A stretch of DNA of 64,000 nt from Paenirhizobium naphthalenivorans. Lineage in GTDB: Bacteria; Pseudomonadota; Alphaproteobacteria; Rhizobiales; Rhizobiaceae. Numbering within the stretch: the first letter of the stretch is position 1; each line of letters begins with the position of its first letter. Both the position numbers and the translations under genes were made by a program. The notes beneath the pieces are model-generated. The model was not told the origin of the DNA. It made no database searches and worked only from the letters and a program-made list of their open reading frames with translations. Positions 19,363-27,821 of this stretch are shown piece after piece. The stretch is from the NCBI RefSeq assembly GCF_007992095.1, contig NZ_BJZP01000004.1:1-64000 (forward strand), written 5' to 3'.

Positions 19363-20607
19363 ATGGACTTGCACAACACAGTTTTGCGGCAGCTGAAGAA
19401 CCGCCGGGATGGTTTCAGCCTGGAGCAACCCTTCTATATCGACCAGGACTATTTCAAACTCGACATGGAGACGATCTGGTATCGTGATTGGCTGTTCGTC
19501 GGCCATGACTGCGAGATCCCGCGCGCCGGTAATTACGTCACCGCCCAGATCGGCGATTACCCGGTGGTGATCGTGCGCGGCAAGGATCAGGTGATCCGTG
19601 CCTTCCACAACACTTGCCGCCACCGTGGCCACCGCGTCTGCACCCAGGAGCGCGGCGCATCCGCCAAGCTTGTCTGCCCCTATCACCAGTGGACCTACGA
19701 CCTTGACGGTTCGCTGGTCTTCGCCCGGCAGATGGGCGAGAGCTTCGACAAGCAGGATTTCGGCCTGAAGCCGGTCCATTGCGAAAGCGTTGGCGGTTAT
19801 ATCTTTATCTGCCTGGCCAACGAGGCATCGGACTTCGCACCGGTCCGGGCGACGATCGAGCCCTATCTCAAGCCGCATCGGCTGTCGGAAGCCAAGGTCG
19901 CACATCGCAACACGATCATCGAGAAGGGCAATTGGAAGCTCGTCTGGGAGAATAATCGCGAGTGCTATCATTGCGCCGGTAATCATCCGGAACTCTGCCG
20001 CACCTATCCCGAGGCCCCCTCGGCCACCGGCGTGCAGGGCGCCAAGGACGATCCGGTCATCACCGAACACTGGGCGCGCTGCGAGGCCGCCGGCTTGCCG
20101 TCGGAGTTCACCATGGATCCGTCCGGCCAGTTCCGCGTCGCCCGTATGCCGCTGATCCAGGATGCCGAAAGCTATACGATGTCCGGCAAGCGTGCCGTCA
20201 AGCGGCCGCTTTCCGATGACGTCACCGTTTCGCACATCGGAACCATGCTGCTGTTTCACTATCCGACCACCTGGAACCACATTCTCGTCGACCACGCTAT
20301 CTCCTTCCGTGTCTTGCCGATCTCGGCCGAGGAAACCGCCGTCACCACCACCTGGCTTGTCCACAAGGATGCCGTCGAAGGCGTTGACTACAATGTCGAC
20401 GAACTCACCCATGTCTGGAAGATGACCAACGATCAGGACCGCGCCATCGTCGAGGAAAACGCCTTTGGCATCAGGTCTCCGGCCTATGAGCCGGGGCCCT
20501 ATTCCGTCGATCATGAGGGCGGTGTGATGCAGTTCGTCGAATGGTATTCCAATTTCATGGTCGAACGCCTGCAGGGCGACAAGGCCAAGCTTTCGGTCGT
20601 GGCATGA
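19363..20607 (+). CDS. gbcA: Rieske oxygenase, glycine-betaine/stachydrine demethylase type, alpha subunit
   Basis: 414 residues. It belongs to the quaternary-amine demethylase group of Rieske oxygenases (GbcA of Pseudomonas, Stc2 of Sinorhizobium), which oxidise an N-methyl group that leaves as formaldehyde. The Rieske site is CRHRGH and CPYHQW (about 86-111); the mononuclear iron site is ENNRECYHCAGNH (about 197-209). The C-terminal WLVHKDAVEGVDY is a group hallmark. Parts of the core look closer to Stc2 than to Pseudomonas GbcA, so the substrate could be glycine betaine or proline betaine. The reductase follows with an ATGA overlap; a B12 riboswitch precedes. Confidence 0.82.
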   Translation: MDLHNTVLRQLKNRRDGFSLEQPFYIDQDYFKLDMETIWYRDWLFVGHDCEIPRAGNYVTAQIGDYPVVIVRGKDQVIRAFHNTCRHRGHRVCTQERGASAKLVCPYHQWTYDLDGSLVFARQMGESFDKQDFGLKPVHCESVGGYIFICLANEASDFAPVRATIEPYLKPHRLSEAKVAHRNTIIEKGNWKLVWENNRECYHCAGNHPELCRTYPEAPSATGVQGAKDDPVITEHWARCEAAGLPSEFTMDPSGQFRVARMPLIQDAESYTMSGKRAVKRPLSDDVTVSHIGTMLLFHYPTTWNHILVDHAISFRVLPISAEETAVTTTWLVHKDAVEGVDYNVDELTHVWKMTNDQDRAIVEENAFGIRSPAYEPGPYSVDHEGGVMQFVEWYSNFMVERLQGDKAKLSVVA

Positions 20608-21686
20608 GCAAGGCGAGCGCATACAGACACGTCGATGAGATGCGGCCCTGGTCGGACCGCGAACACCTGCTCGAATGCGTGGCCTGGACGCCGGAAGCGC
20701 CGGATGTGATGACCTTCACATTCAAGCCCGAGCGTCCCGGACACTGGTTCCGCTATCTGCCTGGTCAGTTCGTGACGCTGGAAATCCCGGTCGGGCCGGA
20801 ACCGGTGATGCGCACCTACACGCTGTCATCCAGCCCGTCGCGCCCCTACACCATCGCAGTGACAGTCAAGGCGCAGAAGGATTCGATCGGCACCCGCTGG
20901 ATGTTCGACAATCTCAAGCCCGGCATGAAGCTGAAGGCGATCGGCCCGCTCGGCGACTTCTCCTATGTGAAGCATCCCGGCGAGAAATATCTGTTCATCT
21001 CGGCTGGTTCCGGCATTACGCCGATGATGTCGATGACCCGCGACATGGCCGACCGCGAGCCGGACACGGATATGGCCTTCATTCATTGTGCCCGCTCGCC
21101 CGACGACATCATCTTCCGCGCCGAACTGGAATACCGGGCCCGCCATCTGCCCTATTTCCAGCTTGGCGTCATTGTCGAGCAGTTGCAGCGGTCGCAATTC
21201 TGGTCGGGTCTGCGGGGTTTCATAGACAAGGCCAAGATTGCTCTTCTGGCACCTGACTATCTCGACCGCACGGTGTTTTGCTGCGGTCCGGCCCCGTTCA
21301 TGGCGACCGTGCGTGAATCTCTGGAAGGCGCCGGCTTCGACATGAGTCGCTACCACGAGGAGACCTTCCAGCCGGTCGCGCCGGAACTGCCGGTCGTTGT
21401 CGCTGACTATGGCGACGAGGCGAAGCCGACAAAGGTGACCTTTACCATGTCCGGCAAGCAGGGGCTGTGTGAGCCGGGCCATACGCTGCTCCAGGCCGCC
21501 CGCGCCAGCGGTGTGCGCATCGGTGCTGCCTGCGAATCCGGATTGTGCGGCACTTGCAAGGTGATGAAGTTGTCCGGCGAGGTCGAGATGAACCACAATG
21601 GCGGCATTCTCGACGACGAGATCGACGAAGGCTACATCCTCGCCTGCTGCTCGCGGCCGAAAGGCGACGTTGAAATCGAGGCCTGA
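20604..21686 (+). CDS. gbcB: Rieske oxygenase reductase, GbcB type
   Basis: 360 residues. It delivers electrons from NAD(P)H to the oxygenase subunit. Order: FAD-binding reductase domain (MRTYTLSSSPS, about 74-84), NAD-binding domain (FISAGSGITPMMSMTR, CGPAPFM), and a C-terminal plant-type [2Fe-2S] ferredoxin domain with CESGLCGTCK and a fourth Cys near ILACC. The ATG at 20604 overlaps the stop of the upstream gene; an upstream in-frame ATG at 20541 lies inside that gene and is rejected. Confidence 0.9.
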   Translation: MSKASAYRHVDEMRPWSDREHLLECVAWTPEAPDVMTFTFKPERPGHWFRYLPGQFVTLEIPVGPEPVMRTYTLSSSPSRPYTIAVTVKAQKDSIGTRWMFDNLKPGMKLKAIGPLGDFSYVKHPGEKYLFISAGSGITPMMSMTRDMADREPDTDMAFIHCARSPDDIIFRAELEYRARHLPYFQLGVIVEQLQRSQFWSGLRGFIDKAKIALLAPDYLDRTVFCCGPAPFMATVRESLEGAGFDMSRYHEETFQPVAPELPVVVADYGDEAKPTKVTFTMSGKQGLCEPGHTLLQAARASGVRIGAACESGLCGTCKVMKLSGEVEMNHNGGILDDEIDEGYILACCSRPKGDVEIEA

Positions 21687-22002
21687 TCCGCGATTACCGC
21701 CTTGCCTTGCTTCTTTATGTCAGTGACGGCGGACGCTGTGTCGGTGGCCGACCGTCGTTCGTTTTGGGACGGAACCGAAGGGCCCGAGGTGCGTTTGGAG
21801 ACGGGGTTTCGACACGGTGATGTCCTCCGGGCAGTCAGGTGCGATTCTCCGATTGTTAATGTCGTGTTCAGGCAGATTTACCTACTGTCGACGCTGGCTT
21901 TCGCTTATCATGCTCTCCTTCGGCGAAGCCGATCGTGGCGGTGATGCGAAGCGCGTCTCGTCATAGTGCATGCACCACAAACGCAGGGAATGGAGAACTG
22001 AA
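21687..22002. other. Intergenic region before the BA14K gene
   Basis: About 316 bases with no convincing reading frame, hairpin or known regulatory motif. It separates two rightward transcription units and should hold the BA14K promoter. Confidence 0.5.
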
Positions 22003-22419
22003 ATGAAAACCAAGATGAAGCGCCTGGCCGCGCTTGTGCTGGCCTCAGCAGTCGTCCTCACGAGCTTCGTGCCTAGCCAGGCGGCCATGCCACTGCCCGC
22101 CCCGGTCATCAAGGCTCCGTCCGATGTAACCAATGTCGATTACCGTCGCCCGCCGCGGTACTATCGTGGCTATCGTGGTTCCCTTCATCGCCGGCCGGGC
22201 TACCGTTACCACAATGGATATTGGTTCCCGCTTGCCGCTTTTGCCGCCGGCGCGATCATCGGCGGCGCCATCGCGACGCCTACCGCGCCGCGTGCCGCAG
22301 GCATCAACCCCAAGCATTATCAGTGGTGCGCGAACCGCTATCGGTCCTATGATGCCTATAGCAACACGTTCCAGCCGTATCACGGCCCACGTCAGCGCTG
22401 CTATTCGCCCTACTACTGA
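22003..22419 (+). CDS. BA14K family secreted protein
   Basis: 138 residues. A signal peptide (ending near VPSQAA) precedes a basic, Tyr- and Arg-rich segment, a short hydrophobic stretch (LAAFAAGAIIGGAIA, about 82-96), and a C-terminal BA14K-like motif HYQWCANRYRSYDAYSNTFQ with a second Cys near the end. BA14K is named for a Brucella immunogenic protein with reported lectin-like properties; the role here is unknown. The ATG at 22003 is preceded by GGAG; an upstream ATG at 21970 is less likely. A strong terminator follows. Confidence 0.85.
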   Translation: MKTKMKRLAALVLASAVVLTSFVPSQAAMPLPAPVIKAPSDVTNVDYRRPPRYYRGYRGSLHRRPGYRYHNGYWFPLAAFAAGAIIGGAIATPTAPRAAGINPKHYQWCANRYRSYDAYSNTFQPYHGPRQRCYSPYY

Positions 22420-22449
22420 ACCGGCGCCGCAAGGCCGTGATGGATGAAA

Positions 22450-22478
22450 ATGCCCGGCCATCAGCCGGGCATTTTTTT
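22450..22478 (+). terminator. Rho-independent terminator of the BA14K gene
   Basis: A perfect 9-bp stem (22450-22458 with 22464-22472), a 5-base loop and a run of seven T. Confidence 0.9.
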
Positions 22479-22615: not shown

Positions 22616-23689
22616 TTACAGCAGCGAGCGCGCGACCGAGCAGACGCAGATCAGCACAAAACTCGCCGGCACACTGTAGCGGATATTGGCGCGAATCGCC
22701 GGTTCGAGATGGGCAAAGCGCAGCTTTCCCGGGAAGTTCGAATAGACCAGAATGATGTTCAGCAGCAGCACCAGGACGAGATAGAAATAGCCGAGCGAGA
22801 CCATGAAGGCGACCGGCGAATTCATCGAGATCGAGCCTGGAAAGCTTGATTCATAGGTGAAGCTCAAGGCCGCGAGTGCCAGAAGCGCCGAGTAGGTCAT
22901 CGGCGCCTTATCGCCAAGAAGCTTCTCCGGTGCCCAGAGGATGAACAGCGATACTGACAGAACGGCGACAAACGGAATGAAGATTGGCAGCAGGTAGTGT
23001 GGCCACTGCCGAGAGACCACAGTCGAGGCCCTGATTCGTACGAAGGGTTTGGCGTTCCAGCCGTAGAACCGCTCCATGACGAACTGGAGCGAGCGTGCGG
23101 TCCAGTTGGATGCCGAAAGCTCCTTGGCGACCGATGACAGTTCCCGGTCGATGTCGTTCATCACGAAGATCACCTCGTCCGCCGAATGGCGGGGTGTTAC
23201 GAGCGAAAGCGTCAACTGCTGCTGATCGAACGGAAAGGTCTGCATGTCGACGTCGACCCGGAAGTCCGCATCCAGCCGGCGAATGCGGGTCACGGTGCCA
23301 TCACTGCGCACAGAAAGCGATACCGAGCTGGACCGTGGTTCGCTGATCTGGTTCTCGATCTCCGTGCCGGGTGTCCACATCTGTCTGAGCCTGGCGTCCG
23401 CATCGGCGCCGACATAATCGAAACGGCCGAAACCGGTCACCTTCGGGTCGAAGGCCTGGCTCGGGTCGCGCCAGCGCTCGGTCATTTCGATCGTCATCGA
23501 TGCCTCGCCGGTTGTTTCGGTGAGGCGGGAAAGGCCGAGGACGCGCATGGCGAAATGGACAGACACCGGCAGACGGATTTCCCGCGGTAAAGGCGGTGAG
23601 GTGTCCTGCGCGGCGGCGGCGGAATGGGCAAGCGCCAACCAGCCGGAAAGGAGGATGAGAAACAGTCGTGGCAATCGCGTGGGCTTCAT
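22616..23689 (-). CDS. Bacterial pentameric ligand-gated ion channel (Cys-loop receptor superfamily)
   Basis: 357 residues. After a signal peptide (about 1-27) comes an extracellular beta-sandwich of about 200 residues carrying the family hallmarks: the W-x-DP strand (ERWRDP, about 81-86), the loop-A motif MWTPG (about 104-108) and FPFD-x-Q (152-157), the core of the Pro-loop/Cys-loop. No Cys pair frames the loop, as in prokaryotic members GLIC and ELIC. Four helices follow: M1 about 231-252, pore-lining M2 about 263-283, M3 about 301-326, M4 about 337-354. The pore helix is bordered by an acidic/basic GDK before it and a Glu near its outer end. Ligand and ion selectivity are unknown. Its ATG overlaps the stop of the Cache gene upstream. 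Confidence 0.87.
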   Translation of the reverse strand: MKPTRLPRLFLILLSGWLALAHSAAAAQDTSPPLPREIRLPVSVHFAMRVLGLSRLTETTGEASMTIEMTERWRDPSQAFDPKVTGFGRFDYVGADADARLRQMWTPGTEIENQISEPRSSSVSLSVRSDGTVTRIRRLDADFRVDVDMQTFPFDQQQLTLSLVTPRHSADEVIFVMNDIDRELSSVAKELSASNWTARSLQFVMERFYGWNAKPFVRIRASTVVSRQWPHYLLPIFIPFVAVLSVSLFILWAPEKLLGDKAPMTYSALLALAALSFTYESSFPGSISMNSPVAFMVSLGYFYLVLVLLLNIILVYSNFPGKLRFAHLEPAIRANIRYSVPASFVLICVCSVARSLL

Positions 23690-24816
23690 GCGGAGCCTCC
23701 GTCGGCCCCGCCGCGGGGCGGGCTGTGTCCGGCCGCCAGGGCATCGATCGCGTCATGCAGGCGGGTGTAGTCGGCAAGGCCGCTTGCGGCAGGAGCATCA
23801 TCGAGCGGCTTTCCGCTCGCGCGCATCTCGGCGTATGTGGCAAGGGCTGCCAGCGGCCGGACGACCATGGCGCGCACCGCGATCATGACGACAGAAAAGG
23901 CGGCGATCATCCCGACGACCACGACGATCATTGCCGTCGCCACGGCACGGAGAAAGCCGCTGTCGAGCCCGGAGAAATCGCGCACGATCAGGATCGCGCC
24001 GATCATTCGCCCGCTGTAGTCGAGGAGCGGCTGGGAGAAGGTGCCGTAGCGCCGGTCGTCGATGCGAGCCGTGCCTTGCACGGGTTCACGCGACAGGCCG
24101 ATGGCGCGGCGGTCCTGGAGCGCCTGGAACAGTGTCGTATTTGTGGCCGCTTCGATGGCGAGGCCTGCTGGCTCCTTCGAGGCGTCGGCGCCCTTTGGTA
24201 CGACGCCGGTCATCGCCTGGCTGAGGAACAGGGCGAAGTCGGCGCCCGAGGCGGATTTCGCCAGTTCGAGCAGGCTCTTGAGATCCACGCCCACTTCGAC
24301 CGTGCCGACCAGCGTTTCGCCGTCCTGGATCGGTGCGACGGCGCGCAGGCTCAAGCCGGCCAGTCCCACCTCTAGCCCCTTCTGCAAGACACGGCTGCGG
24401 TTGGCGGCAAGGATCATCGGGCGGATGGCCGACAGGTCCTGGCCGAAATTCGTGGGGTCCTGGACGCGCAGGAAGCTCTTGATGTCCACGGTGTGGAAAT
24501 GCAGCATGTTGACACCTGCCTCGCTGGCAAGCGCTTCGTAGCTGGGCTTCAGCATCCGGGCGAGACCGTCCCGGTCGCCGGCCTTCATCAGCGCCACGAC
24601 TTGCGGATCGTTGGCGATCCGGTCCGCATGGGTGGCCGAGAGGCTCGCCGCCTGCGCCATGGACGAGGTCAGAAGCAGCGCCGTCGCCTGCATTTCGTTC
24701 ATCTTGCCGGTGTCGAGCTGCCTCTGGCTGCCGCCGACCACGACCAAGCCGCTGATCGACAGGATGAGGGCGAAAAAGGCAGCGGTGGTGATGGCGAGAG
24801 ATCGGTCGAGAGTCAT
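23686..24816 (-). CDS. Membrane Cache sensor protein lacking an output domain
   Basis: 376 residues. One N-terminal helix (about 8-29), a periplasmic region of about 270 residues with the look of a double Cache sensor (SYEALASEAGVNMLHFHTVD, RAVAPIQDGETLVGTVEVGVDL), a second helix (about 306-330), then a short tail that looks like a HAMP domain (VVRPLAALATYAEMRASGKP to DYTRLHDAIDAL) and stops. No kinase, cyclase or chemotaxis signalling domain follows. The stop codon overlaps the start of the ligand-gated channel gene by four bases, so the two proteins are probably made together. A partner or ligand-relay role for the channel is inference. Confidence 0.8.
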   Translation of the reverse strand: MTLDRSLAITTAAFFALILSISGLVVVGGSQRQLDTGKMNEMQATALLLTSSMAQAASLSATHADRIANDPQVVALMKAGDRDGLARMLKPSYEALASEAGVNMLHFHTVDIKSFLRVQDPTNFGQDLSAIRPMILAANRSRVLQKGLEVGLAGLSLRAVAPIQDGETLVGTVEVGVDLKSLLELAKSASGADFALFLSQAMTGVVPKGADASKEPAGLAIEAATNTTLFQALQDRRAIGLSREPVQGTARIDDRRYGTFSQPLLDYSGRMIGAILIVRDFSGLDSGFLRAVATAMIVVVVGMIAAFSVVMIAVRAMVVRPLAALATYAEMRASGKPLDDAPAASGLADYTRLHDAIDALAAGHSPPRGGADGGSA

Positions 24817-25087: not shown

Positions 25088-26866
25088 ATGTACAAGGCGC
25101 CGGTAGACGAAATCGCGTTCACCCTCAAGCATGTCGCCGGAATGGCAGATGCGCTCGAACAGGGGCGACTGGGTGATCTGAGCGACGACCTCGTCGATGC
25201 CATCCTGGTTGAAGCCGGACGTTTTGCCTCCGACGAGGTGGCACCGCTCGCCGAGATCGGCGACAAGCAGGGTGCCCGCATGGTCGACGGCAAGGTCATC
25301 GTTCCGGACGGCTGGGCCGAGCTTTACCGGCATTGGGCCGAAGGCGGCTGGAATTCGCTGGTCGCGCCGGAAGAGTTCGGCGGGCAGGCCCTGCCGCATA
25401 TGCTCAACGTCGCGGCGCTGGAGATGTGGAATTCCGGCTCCATGGCCTTCGCGCTCGGGCCGACGCTGACCATGGGCGCTTCGGAAGCGCTTGCCACCCA
25501 CGGCAGCGCCGAACTCAAGGAAAAATTCCTGCACAAGATGGTGTCCGGCGAATGGACCGCCTCGATGAACCTGACCGAGCCGCATGCCGGCTCCGACCTC
25601 GGCGTGATGAAGTCGCGCGCTGAGCGCCGCGACGACGGCAGCTATCGCATCTTCGGTCAGAAGATCTTCATCACCTGGGGCGAACATGAGATCACCGACA
25701 ATATCGTCCATCTGGTTCTCGCCCGTCTGCCAGACGCGCCGGCCGGCACGCGTGGCATCTCGCTCTTCCTCGTGCCGAAGTTCCTGCTCAATGACGACGG
25801 CTCGATCGGCGCCCGCAACGATCTGCATTGCCATTCGCTCGAACACAAGCTCGGCATCCATGGCTCGCCGACCTGCACGATGATCTACGGCGACGGCAAG
25901 TTCGGTGACGAACCGGGCGCCGTTGGCTATCTGATCGGCGAGGAGAACAAGGGGCTCGCCTGCATGTTCACCATGATGAACAACGCCCGCCTCGCGGTCG
26001 GCATGCAGGGTGTGGCGATCTGTGAAGCGGCGACCCAGAAGGCGGTCGAATACGCCAAGGAACGCACCCAGGGCAGGGCGCCGGGTTGGACCGGGGCCGG
26101 CATGAGCCCGATCATCGAGCATCCGGACGTCGCCCGCACGCTTGTCACCATGAAGGCGCTGACGCAGGGCTCGCGCGCCATCTGCTATTCCTGCGCCCAT
26201 GCCATCGACATGTCGCATCACACGGACGGCGCGGAGGCGAAGAAGTGGGCGGAGCGCGGCGCGCTTCTGACACCGATCGCCAAGTCCTTTGCCACCGATG
26301 CCGGCGTCGATGTCGCGTCGATGGGCATCCAGGTACACGGTGGTATGGGTTTCATCGAAGAGACCGGTGCTGCCCGCTATCTGCGTGACGCCCGTATCGC
26401 TCCGATCTATGAAGGCACCAATGGCATCCAGGCGGCCGATCTTGTCACCCGCAAGCTGCCGCTATCGGATGGCGGCCAGGTGCGCGGCTTCATCGCCGAA
26501 CTGAAGGACATCGCCAAGGCGGTGCGTGGTTCCAACCTCGACGGCTTCGGCACCACCGCCGACCGGCTGGACGCAAGTCTTGCCGACCTCGAGGAGACGA
26601 CCGAATGGCTGCTCGCCCGTCTTGGTGAAGGCAATGTGGCCGCCGCTCTCGCCGGCGCCACCGCCTACCAGCGCCTGTTCGGTCTGGCCCTGACCGGCAC
26701 ATATCTTGCCAAGGGTGCGCTCGCCGACGAGGGCCACGGTCGCGATCATCGCGTCGCGCTCTGCCGCTTCGCCGCTGAGAACCTGATCGCCGAGACCGCG
26801 GCACTGAAGGACCGTGTCATCAACGGCGAAGCGAGCCTGACAGCCGCGCGTGTGCTGTTCGCCTGA
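25088..26866 (+). CDS. Acyl-CoA dehydrogenase, long form with C-terminal extension
   Basis: 592 residues, the length of the 60-kDa acyl-CoA dehydrogenase group (FadE5/DmdC-like) rather than the 380-residue form. It introduces a 2,3-double bond into an acyl-CoA, passing electrons to ETF. Visible: ASMNLTEPHAGSDLG and the FAD/substrate region QKIFITWGEHE, the C-terminal flavin-binding VHGGMGFIEETGAARYLRDARI, the catalytic-base region IYEGTNGIQ, and an extra C-terminal domain of about 130 residues. The chain-length preference is not readable. A good ribosome site (AGGAGGAG) lies before the ATG. An enoyl-CoA hydratase follows 190 bases later. Confidence 0.93.
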   Translation: MYKAPVDEIAFTLKHVAGMADALEQGRLGDLSDDLVDAILVEAGRFASDEVAPLAEIGDKQGARMVDGKVIVPDGWAELYRHWAEGGWNSLVAPEEFGGQALPHMLNVAALEMWNSGSMAFALGPTLTMGASEALATHGSAELKEKFLHKMVSGEWTASMNLTEPHAGSDLGVMKSRAERRDDGSYRIFGQKIFITWGEHEITDNIVHLVLARLPDAPAGTRGISLFLVPKFLLNDDGSIGARNDLHCHSLEHKLGIHGSPTCTMIYGDGKFGDEPGAVGYLIGEENKGLACMFTMMNNARLAVGMQGVAICEAATQKAVEYAKERTQGRAPGWTGAGMSPIIEHPDVARTLVTMKALTQGSRAICYSCAHAIDMSHHTDGAEAKKWAERGALLTPIAKSFATDAGVDVASMGIQVHGGMGFIEETGAARYLRDARIAPIYEGTNGIQAADLVTRKLPLSDGGQVRGFIAELKDIAKAVRGSNLDGFGTTADRLDASLADLEETTEWLLARLGEGNVAAALAGATAYQRLFGLALTGTYLAKGALADEGHGRDHRVALCRFAAENLIAETAALKDRVINGEASLTAARVLFA

Positions 26867-26884
26867 GGATCCCTTCCCCAACAA

Positions 26885-26907
26885 CCCCTCCCCACGAAGG
26901 GGAGGGG
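26885..26907. repeat. Perfect GC palindrome, rhizobial intergenic type
   Basis: CCCCTCCCC (26885-26893) and GGGGAGGGG (26899-26907) form a 9-bp perfect inverted repeat with a 5-base loop. No T run follows, so it is more like the short repeated palindromes of rhizobial genomes than a terminator. A related but imperfect repeat occurs near 36972-37000. Confidence 0.6.
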
Positions 26908-27056
26908 CCTAGCGTGCCGCCACTGTTGGACATACGGCCGAAAGCTGGCTGCAGTTTTCTCGCTCCTTGCGGGGAGATGGCCGGCGGGCCGGCGCGGGAG
27001 TTTTCGTTTGAAACGATCTCCCTCATAGGAACTGAGACACCAACTGGGAGATATCC

Positions 27057-27821
27057 ATGACCGACCACATCCTGCTCGAACGTCCTGAAGCTTACCCAGG
27101 CGTGCTGGTGATCCGCTTCAACCGGCCGGAAAAGAAGAACGCCATTACCCAGGCCATGTATGCCAGAATGGCCGAAGGTCTGCTTCAGGCTGAGGATGAC
27201 GCGGCGATCCACGCTGTCGCTTTCCTCGGCACCGAAGGCTGTTTCTCGGCCGGCAACGATATGGCTGATTTCCTCGCCTTCGCTATGGCCGGCGCGGTGG
27301 GCGAACCGGCCGCCTTCGGCTTCCTCCGGGCTTTGTGGAGTGTTTCAAAGCCAGTCGTCTCGGGCGTCGATGGTCTTGCCATCGGCATCGGTACGACGAT
27401 CCAGATGCATTGCGACATGACGATCGCTTCCGACCGTAGCCTGTTCAAGACGCCTTTCGTCGACCTGGCTCTCGTTCCGGAAGCCGGTTCCAGCCTGCTT
27501 GCGCCGAGAGCAATGGGACACCAGCGCGCCTTTGCCATGCTGGCTGCCAGCGAAGGCTTTTCCGCCGAGCAAGCCAGGGAAGCCGGTCTGATCTGGAAGG
27601 TCGTTGCCCCGGTCGAGGTCGAGGCCGAGACGCTGAGGCTTGCCGCTTCGCTCGCCGCCAAGCCGCCGGAAGCCATGCGCATAGCCCGCGATCTGATCCG
27701 TGGCGATCGCGGCGAGCTGCTCGCACGCATGGAGGAGGAGCTGAAGTTCTTCGTCGAGCGCCTGACCAGCGCCGAGGCTCGCGCCGCTTTCGAAGCTTTC
27801 ATGACCAAGGCACGGAACTGA
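27057..27821 (+). CDS. Enoyl-CoA hydratase/isomerase (crotonase) family protein
   Basis: 254 residues. Crotonase fold with the CoA-binding and oxyanion-hole segments visible: FNRPEKKNAITQAMY, FSAGNDMADF and KPVVSGVDGLAIGIGTTIQMHCDMTIAS. The usual first catalytic Glu position of hydratases (after GIG) reads T-T-I-Q, while PFVDLALVPEAGSS keeps a Glu in the second position. It may therefore be an isomerase or another crotonase rather than a classical hydratase. It lies downstream of the acyl-CoA dehydrogenase and probably serves the same acyl-CoA route. Confidence 0.88.
   Translation: MTDHILLERPEAYPGVLVIRFNRPEKKNAITQAMYARMAEGLLQAEDDAAIHAVAFLGTEGCFSAGNDMADFLAFAMAGAVGEPAAFGFLRALWSVSKPVVSGVDGLAIGIGTTIQMHCDMTIASDRSLFKTPFVDLALVPEAGSSLLAPRAMGHQRAFAMLAASEGFSAEQAREAGLIWKVVAPVEVEAETLRLAASLAAKPPEAMRIARDLIRGDRGELLARMEEELKFFVERLTSAEARAAFEAFMTKARN

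Follow-up and report, generated by a model that had tools for sequence, protein, structure and literature searches.

Two ways of joining a Cache sensor domain to a bacterial relative of the nerve-receptor ion channels have been reported (Tasneem et al., PMC549065; here and below, papers are cited for the portions of their text that were available). In Rhodopseudomonas, a predicted operon holds a channel gene and a stand-alone Cache gene, whose products were proposed to cooperate, perhaps in chemotaxis, and in Methanosarcina, Cytophaga and Microbulbifer a Cache domain and an MCP-N domain are fused to the channel (PMC549065). Here we describe the two-gene form in Paenirhizobium naphthalenivorans, in a 64,000-nucleotide stretch of contig NZ_BJZP01000004.1 (the window), where the gene for a dCache_3 membrane sensor overlaps that for a predicted GLIC-like channel. 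An earlier note, made from the letters of the window, knew of no described case, and the Rhodopseudomonas operon and the Cache-fused channels show that it was mistaken in this (PMC549065). The Cache-channel pair is already a known kind, the breadth and anatomy of which are extended here; what is new is that breadth, a tail-less branch of sensors, a covariation beyond that of neighbouring genes, and two candidate residue signatures.

The Rhodopseudomonas operon of an ART-LGIC channel and a Cache gene resembles the window pair. The Rhodopseudomonas loci L182, L191 and L193 hold both genes, their channels belonging to the clade of the window channel; from these related loci we infer that the Cache gene of Tasneem et al. 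was itself of the dCache_3 type. It differs in having been reported for one bacterium, as a prediction (PMC549065), and Rhodopseudomonas Caches have 10-12 residues after the second transmembrane helix (TM2), against 62 in the window Cache. The arrangement described there, adjacent same-strand genes for a channel of simple architecture and a Cache protein, was found in the window and at 61/61 loci from named genomes. Channels fused to MCP-N and Cache also join a Cache module with a channel module, in one chain there and in two proteins here. Likewise, channels fused to periplasmic binding proteins belong to the same superfamily and bear a distinct small-molecule module (PMC549065), and Peripla_BP_6 was found in 8/9 of the long channel open reading frames (ORFs) scanned; in these the binding protein is fused, whereas the window has a separate, membrane-anchored Cache. 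DeCLIC, a bacterial pentameric channel with an added periplasmic regulatory module (PMC9897478, PMC12664993), had been taken as the model of which a separate Cache would be a split version. It proves to be a loose analogue, as its N-terminal domain lies in the same chain and has been compared with other folds, namely jelly-roll and calcium-binding domains (PMC12664993), and no such domain is present in the window channel, a chain of 357 residues whose ligand-binding domain (LBD) match starts at residue 39. Little is known of the N-terminal domains of such channels (PMC12664993). The word Cache is absent from the main text, as available, of PMC4795631, PMC9897478 and PMC12664993, and no further paper on Cache-channel pairing was recognised by title or abstract start among the matches listed, and no test of the pair's mechanism was met. 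Chemoreceptors built of dCache_3, HAMP and MCPsignal contain a related sensor domain and, unlike the window Cache, keep the cytoplasmic signalling half. GLIC is the best PDB match of the window channel by sequence and by predicted fold, at about 20% identity.

The window combines a relative of the nerve-receptor ion channels with a Cache protein that resembles a chemoreceptor minus its signalling half. Our preferred reading, to which we assign a probability of about 0.62, is that the two genes encode an obligate receptor-channel unit in which the ligand state of the Cache protein controls the channel. To our knowledge, few natural ligands or partners have been identified for bacterial pentameric channels. 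Cache domains are a class commonly assayed in ligand screening, and an obligate Cache partner, if true, would offer a route to the channel's natural stimulus by such screening, as well as a simple two-protein model of an auxiliary sensor controlling a Cys-loop-type channel.

Conservation of the gene pair

Both ORFs, and all features given below for the two genes, lie on the minus strand, with the Cache gene (24816-23686) preceding the channel gene (23689-22616). The Cache stop codon TGA (23688-23686) shares letters with the channel ATG (23689-23687), which gives a 4-nt ATGA overlap at 23686..23689; that the channel ATG overlaps the Cache stop had been read in the earlier note. Spacing was compared across 71 pairs with starts picked by script, namely the window, 61 named loci and nine pairs of a second deep channel clade (clade B, including a frameshifted locus in genome G601). 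A stop/start overlap of 4 nt recurs in 38/71 pairs and one of 1 nt in 12/71.

The pairing itself is well beyond chance. A scan of named genomes by the channel alone gave 61 channel loci, and at all 61 a Cache gene immediately precedes the channel gene in the same orientation; the two peptide patterns of the scan were drawn from an alignment of clade A channels, so that it is likely to reach clade A alone. By NCBI rank, 53 of these loci are alphaproteobacterial, one is betaproteobacterial and seven are without class. They span ten named families, with 11 loci lacking a family. The earlier note had proposed side-by-side conservation as a check of the pair, and these loci show it. Among 394 genomes of the same family, 23 channel loci were found in 22 genomes and a Cache gene at 22/23 (in G601, within one ORF), the sole locus without Cache being a distant channel of 29 bits (L052). 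The 297 genomes of the order gave 33 channel matches, 30 of them with a locus, and all 10 channel loci of at least 100 bits (the window included) have the upstream Cache gene. Across 349 genomes of the phylum, a Cache gene was present at 3/29 loci, of which two had already been counted and one (L121) is new. These genome sets partly overlap, and the Cache protein was detected by its own profile, by which an unrelated sensor would be missed.

The association also holds when viewed from the sensor. Cache matches of at least 100 bits number 22 in the 394 family genomes, and the 21 genomes in which they occur are those where a channel scores 100 bits or more, a threshold set after the scores were seen. 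The next matches lie in frames of 719 residues (G437, 98.8 bits) and 724 residues (G430, 96.1 bits), the former being a chemoreceptor (L075), and weaker matches mostly fall in long open frames. PF14827 matched 18 times in 101 order genomes, and four of these matches are channel-paired Caches (G000, G019 and G065 twice). Two short dCache_3 frames, in G381 (369 residues, 49.5 bits) and at L078, are cut off by contig ends and do not count as unpaired, and a third, G368:C29 (20.6 bits), is unsupported by our Cache profile. A 492-residue dCache_3 frame in G337 lies close to a contig end. The search for counterexamples also returned a 538-residue dCache_3 frame in G547 (76.9 bits by our profile) with no channel match in the 9 kb covered. 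Two genomes hold two complete pairs, each channel with its own Cache: in G368 there is one pair per clade (L038, L053), and in G065 both pairs are of A type (L004, L028).

Trees and signature counts were based on 70 pairs (62 of clade A and eight of clade B, G601 excluded); the trees are quick ones, with an outgroup rooting made by choice and several long branches flagged. In the Cache tree, all clade A and clade B partners lie on one side of the branch that separates them from nine other dCache_3 proteins, the channel tree shows the same A/B split, and both deep clades retain the pair. Cache and channel patristic distances correlate with an r of 0.964 over the 62 clade A pairs. At the 18 loci with two shared syntenic neighbours, an acyl-CoA dehydrogenase and an enoyl-CoA hydratase, the partial correlation of Cache and channel given these neighbours is 0.843, a value reached in 0/5000 permutations, against 0.02, 0.24 and, between the two neighbours themselves, 0.447 for three control pairings.

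These data bear on the alternative that transfer or chance keeps the two genes side by side, with no functional link. Its basis is the patchiness of the pair, found in 21/394 family genomes and in one betaproteobacterium (L205), which suggests that the pair has probably been transferred. We regard it as very improbable, as the genes are never apart at the 61 named loci or in either deep clade, and no other recognised family around the pair exceeds 18/70 loci. The latter count comes from the 70 loci with flanks of about 8 kb or to the contig end, where the 45 most widespread clusters were viewed, and 17 of these also by position. Nothing but the pair is recognised at all 70 loci; the acyl-CoA dehydrogenase and enoyl-CoA hydratase (25088-27821 in the window), syntenic beside the pair, reach 18/70, and the non-pair clusters above 18 loci look, by eye, like shadow ORFs that lie over the pair in different reading frames.

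Predicted anatomy of sensor and channel

The Cache protein has 376 residues and matches PF14827 (dCache_3) over residues 55-280 (23977..24654) with an E-value of 1.1e-28 (100.9 bits against a cut-off of 25.7). In its AlphaFold2 model (mean confidence, pLDDT, 89.4), an alpha/beta domain of Cache type stands between two long helices, the second of which is followed by a short tail. By hydropathy, the first transmembrane helix covers approximately residues 8-30 (24727..24795), within a helix assigned by DSSP on the model at 5-68, and TM2 covers residues 296-314 (23875..23931), within a predicted helix at 282-334. A double Cache domain between two transmembrane helices is thus supported by Pfam, hydropathy, the model and many dCache matches in PDB. 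The model resembles the domains that serve as sensors in chemoreceptors and histidine kinases; the top two rows are integrative models, and the first solved structures match with E-values of about 4e-7 and modest TM-scores (3lie_B, 0.40 by query and 0.54 by target length).

What follows TM2 is a cytoplasmic tail of 62 residues (23689..23874). The earlier note had described a large double-Cache-like domain with a HAMP-like tail and no kinase, cyclase or chemotaxis domain: the first element can now be named dCache_3 by Pfam, HAMP stays a resemblance by eye, and the missing output is upheld, with no HAMP, kinase, cyclase, GGDEF or MCP domain among Pfam matches with E-values of up to 1. The only NCBIfam matches were two weak ones to histidine kinases, far under their cut-offs (15.7/194 and 12.3/356 bits), and neither the HAMP nor the signalling domain of a chemoreceptor (MCP) or histidine kinase was recognised in the window Cache. 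One relative (P0110) carries a precomputed HAMP match.

Tail length was taken from where the most hydrophobic 19-residue stretch beyond position 230 ends. In clade A it amounts to 51-67 residues in 34/62 pairs and to 7-21 residues in 28/62, and 27 of these 28 short-tail Caches make up the whole of one supported clade (27 rows) in the Cache tree, which holds Rhodopseudomonas, Bradyrhizobium, Bosea, Acidovorax and others; the remaining one is that of A. undicola. These sets were chosen by the channel and say nothing on tail-less Caches elsewhere. Because the sensor has no output domain and, in 28/62 pairs, hardly any cytoplasmic part, the channel is the likeliest output of the Cache protein. An almost tail-less sensor beside a constant channel is the strongest argument for this, and the tail-less branch provides a clean test case, since the channel is the only evident output there.

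The same tails separate this reading from one in which the Cache protein has its output elsewhere in the cytoplasm, for example by pairing with chemoreceptors through its HAMP-like tail, and shares only its regulation with the channel. Of three related dCache_3 proteins that were scanned, two (L075, L080) are chemoreceptors with HAMP and MCP signalling domains (the third, L078, is cut by the contig end and has neither), Caches of the window type keep their 51-67 residues, and a family that appears chemoreceptor-like by eye lies within about 8 kb at 8/70 loci. That idea nevertheless seems improbable, as 7-21 residues after TM2 in 28/62 Caches leave little for signalling and the chemoreceptor-like neighbours are limited to eight loci, all in Rhizobiaceae (L148, L149, L150, L152, L153, L157, L159 and L166). 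A response-regulator-like family, also recognised by eye, occurs at 7/70 loci. The earlier note had asked whether the Cache homologue has a separate cognate kinase elsewhere, and these two families are what the surroundings hold in answer, with no widely conserved candidate nearby.

The channel (22616..23689) has 357 residues. Its match to PF02931 (Neur_chan_LBD), at residues 39-227 (23009..23575), lies above the cut-off with an E-value of 8.2e-17, and GLIC is matched by profile with an E-value of 1.7e-21 and by the fold of the AlphaFold2 model (mean pLDDT 86.9) with an E-value of 3.6e-21 and TM-scores of 0.72/0.82. The chain thus contains the extracellular ligand-binding beta-sandwich of the pentameric channel superfamily. 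It shows the motifs WxDP (73-76), MWTPG (104-108) and FPFDQQ (152-157), and its model has four C-terminal helices, at 230-252, 255-282, 292-316 and 328-356. Taken together, Pfam, PDB and AlphaFold2 agree with the Cys-loop-superfamily channel that the earlier note had recognised by these same marks, and support the prediction of a GLIC-like pentameric channel subunit. Among paired channels, F152 and P153 of the Pro-loop are conserved in 70/70 and D155 in 69/70. A probable signal peptide occupies residues 1-27 (23609..23689), judged by eye and by a predicted helix at 6-25.

The second modelled helix (255-282; 22844..22927) corresponds to the M2 pore helix, where the GLIC alignment places Asp260 at -1', Ser at 6', Leu270 at 9' and Glu280 at 19'. 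We take this pore numbering, and the rule that relates it to cation selectivity, to apply to the window channel. An Asp or Glu is found at -1' in 58/62 clade A and 8/8 clade B channels. Two paired channels from Reyranella (L170 and L175) have no acidic residue near this position, and their ion selectivity may differ.

Coupling of sensor and channel

The preferred reading starts from what was observed at these loci: two overlapping genes with predicted folds, which co-occur almost completely within the clade and have parallel trees, and a sensor whose output part is missing. The dCache_3 protein, related to chemoreceptor sensors, would cross the inner membrane twice and bind a small molecule in the periplasm. 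Having no signalling domain, it could relay the change caused by ligand binding to the channel through the periplasm or the membrane helices, by direct contact; the ligand-loaded Cache would most likely shift its own helices or its periplasmic face and so alter channel opening. The channel, predicted to be pentameric and probably co-translated with the Cache, would provide a probably cation-selective pore that the Cache opens or closes. Of the two-protein sensory unit put forward in the earlier note, the conserved two-gene unit and the lack of an output domain hold; gating of the channel by the Cache, or assembly with it, stays conjectural.

Residue signatures point to where the two proteins might meet. 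Lys187 of the Cache (24256..24258) is present in 70/70 channel-paired Caches, compared with 5/21 other dCache_3 proteins, and Met134 behaves similarly (66/70 partners, 2/21 others). In the channel, Gly210-Trp211 (23057..23062) is invariant in 70/70 paired channels, at the tip between strands 196-209 and 215-227, a hairpin (196-227) that we take to be loop C from the GLIC alignment and general knowledge. For comparison, 46 rows of unpaired channels, meaning those whose flanks, of about 1.5 kb at most, gave no Cache match, were obtained from 47 loci (one without match; some, e.g., L018 and L124, repeat one gene). No Gly-Trp occurs within aligned columns 201-222 of these rows; over a broad stretch it occurs in 5/46, and a nearby Trp without Gly in 13/46, counts to be read with the uncertain loop-C alignment of distant channels. 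Lys187 and the loop-C Gly-Trp, noticed after the fact, are candidate contact or ligand signatures. In a more specific version of the preferred reading, the Cache would be a separate ligand-binding subunit docked on the outer LBD face near the loop-C Gly-Trp, acting as a ligand-controlled protein agonist or antagonist; this we put forward tentatively, as an arrangement more doubtful than probable.

The same loop C can be read differently. The Cache might capture or sense a ligand near the channel without touching it, the channel's own site doing the gating. A view close to this is already in print, in which preliminary concentration or sensing is followed by binding to the channel LBD (Tasneem et al., PMC549065). 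The canonical LBD retained by the channel and the invariant Trp at the loop-C tip agree with it, but a sensor with two membrane anchors would seem a poor concentrator; on balance we consider it unlikely.

The constant pairing, and an upstream, overlapping gene order that fits co-translational assembly, would also suit a Cache that serves as an assembly or stability factor for the channel and not as a ligand-controlled gate. Arg117 and Arg132 of the Cache speak against this, as they are common to other dCache_3 proteins and kept in 70/70 partners, which suggests that ligand binding has been retained; an assembly factor pure and simple thus appears improbable, to much the same degree as signalling to cytoplasmic partners.

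Several observations weigh against an obligate unit. We take GLIC to work as a channel without a Cache, no Cache match was seen within about 1.5 kb of the distant channels examined, and in the order genomes such a match was present at 0/20 channel loci below 70 bits. The earlier note had held that channels mostly lacking a Cache neighbour would speak against the unit: they were not found within the channel clade, whereas the distant channels are of exactly this sort. Gaps of 11-59 nt separate the genes in 7/71 pairs, and one of 368 nt, with an uncertain start, in another. The distance correlation drops to 0.809 over all 70 pairs, and the nearest row agrees between the trees in only 39/62 clade A pairs. 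Parallel trees are in any case expected without contact, because always-adjacent genes share their history, and the partial correlation could reflect joint transfer. The Lys187 and Gly-Trp signatures may date from single ancestral events, the -1' acid is missing in 4/62 clade A channels, and the chemoreceptor-like neighbours described above belong here as well.

Neighbouring genes and distant channels

On its 5' side the pair is flanked by the divergent acyl-CoA dehydrogenase gene (from 25088, plus strand) and on its 3' side by a convergent gene for a BA14K-like protein (21970-22419, plus strand), so that Cache and channel form a two-gene unit on their own strand. A site scan of the locus found no promoter-like site and one terminator-like site, inside the Cache gene, where 1.8 were expected by chance. 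A GC-rich inverted repeat with A/T runs at its sides (22447-22477), seen by eye between the convergent BA14K and channel genes and absent from the site-scan list, is perhaps a two-way terminator.

Further along lie genes for a Rieske ring-hydroxylating oxygenase and a flavin/2Fe-2S reductase (19363-21686), which we take to resemble the glycine-betaine oxygenase pair GbcAB. Glycine betaine or another quaternary amine was considered as the ligand on this ground and is not supported, the reductase family occurring at 12/70 loci as local synteny.

Single loci add some observations of their own. A natural fusion of Cache and channel, as proof of contact, was sought in two cases and dropped, both appearing to be frameshift products, real or by sequencing error. 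In G601 a single 754-residue ORF covers both genes (L046:1471-3732, minus strand) and, by eye, switches frame within the Cache tail relative to its relatives; the metagenome protein P0139 has both Pfam domains and a stretch that, judged by eye, looks out of frame. The copy of Acidovorax delafieldii (L205) is the only one ranked as betaproteobacterial and is nested among alphaproteobacterial rows in both trees, which indicates a probable transfer. Beside a distant channel (L122:373-1281, minus strand) lies a gene for a periplasmic binding protein of the phosphonate type, an arrangement similar to the PBP-II operons that Tasneem et al. described, and two distant channel ORFs stand in tandem on the same strand at L026:2-2199. 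Finally, six clade-B-like channels (P0141, P0144, P0150, P0152, P0159 and P0168) show, by eye, an extra N-terminal stretch together with the loop-C Gly-Trp, and two of them are named from Myxococcota-type sources (Labilithrix, Polyangiaceae).

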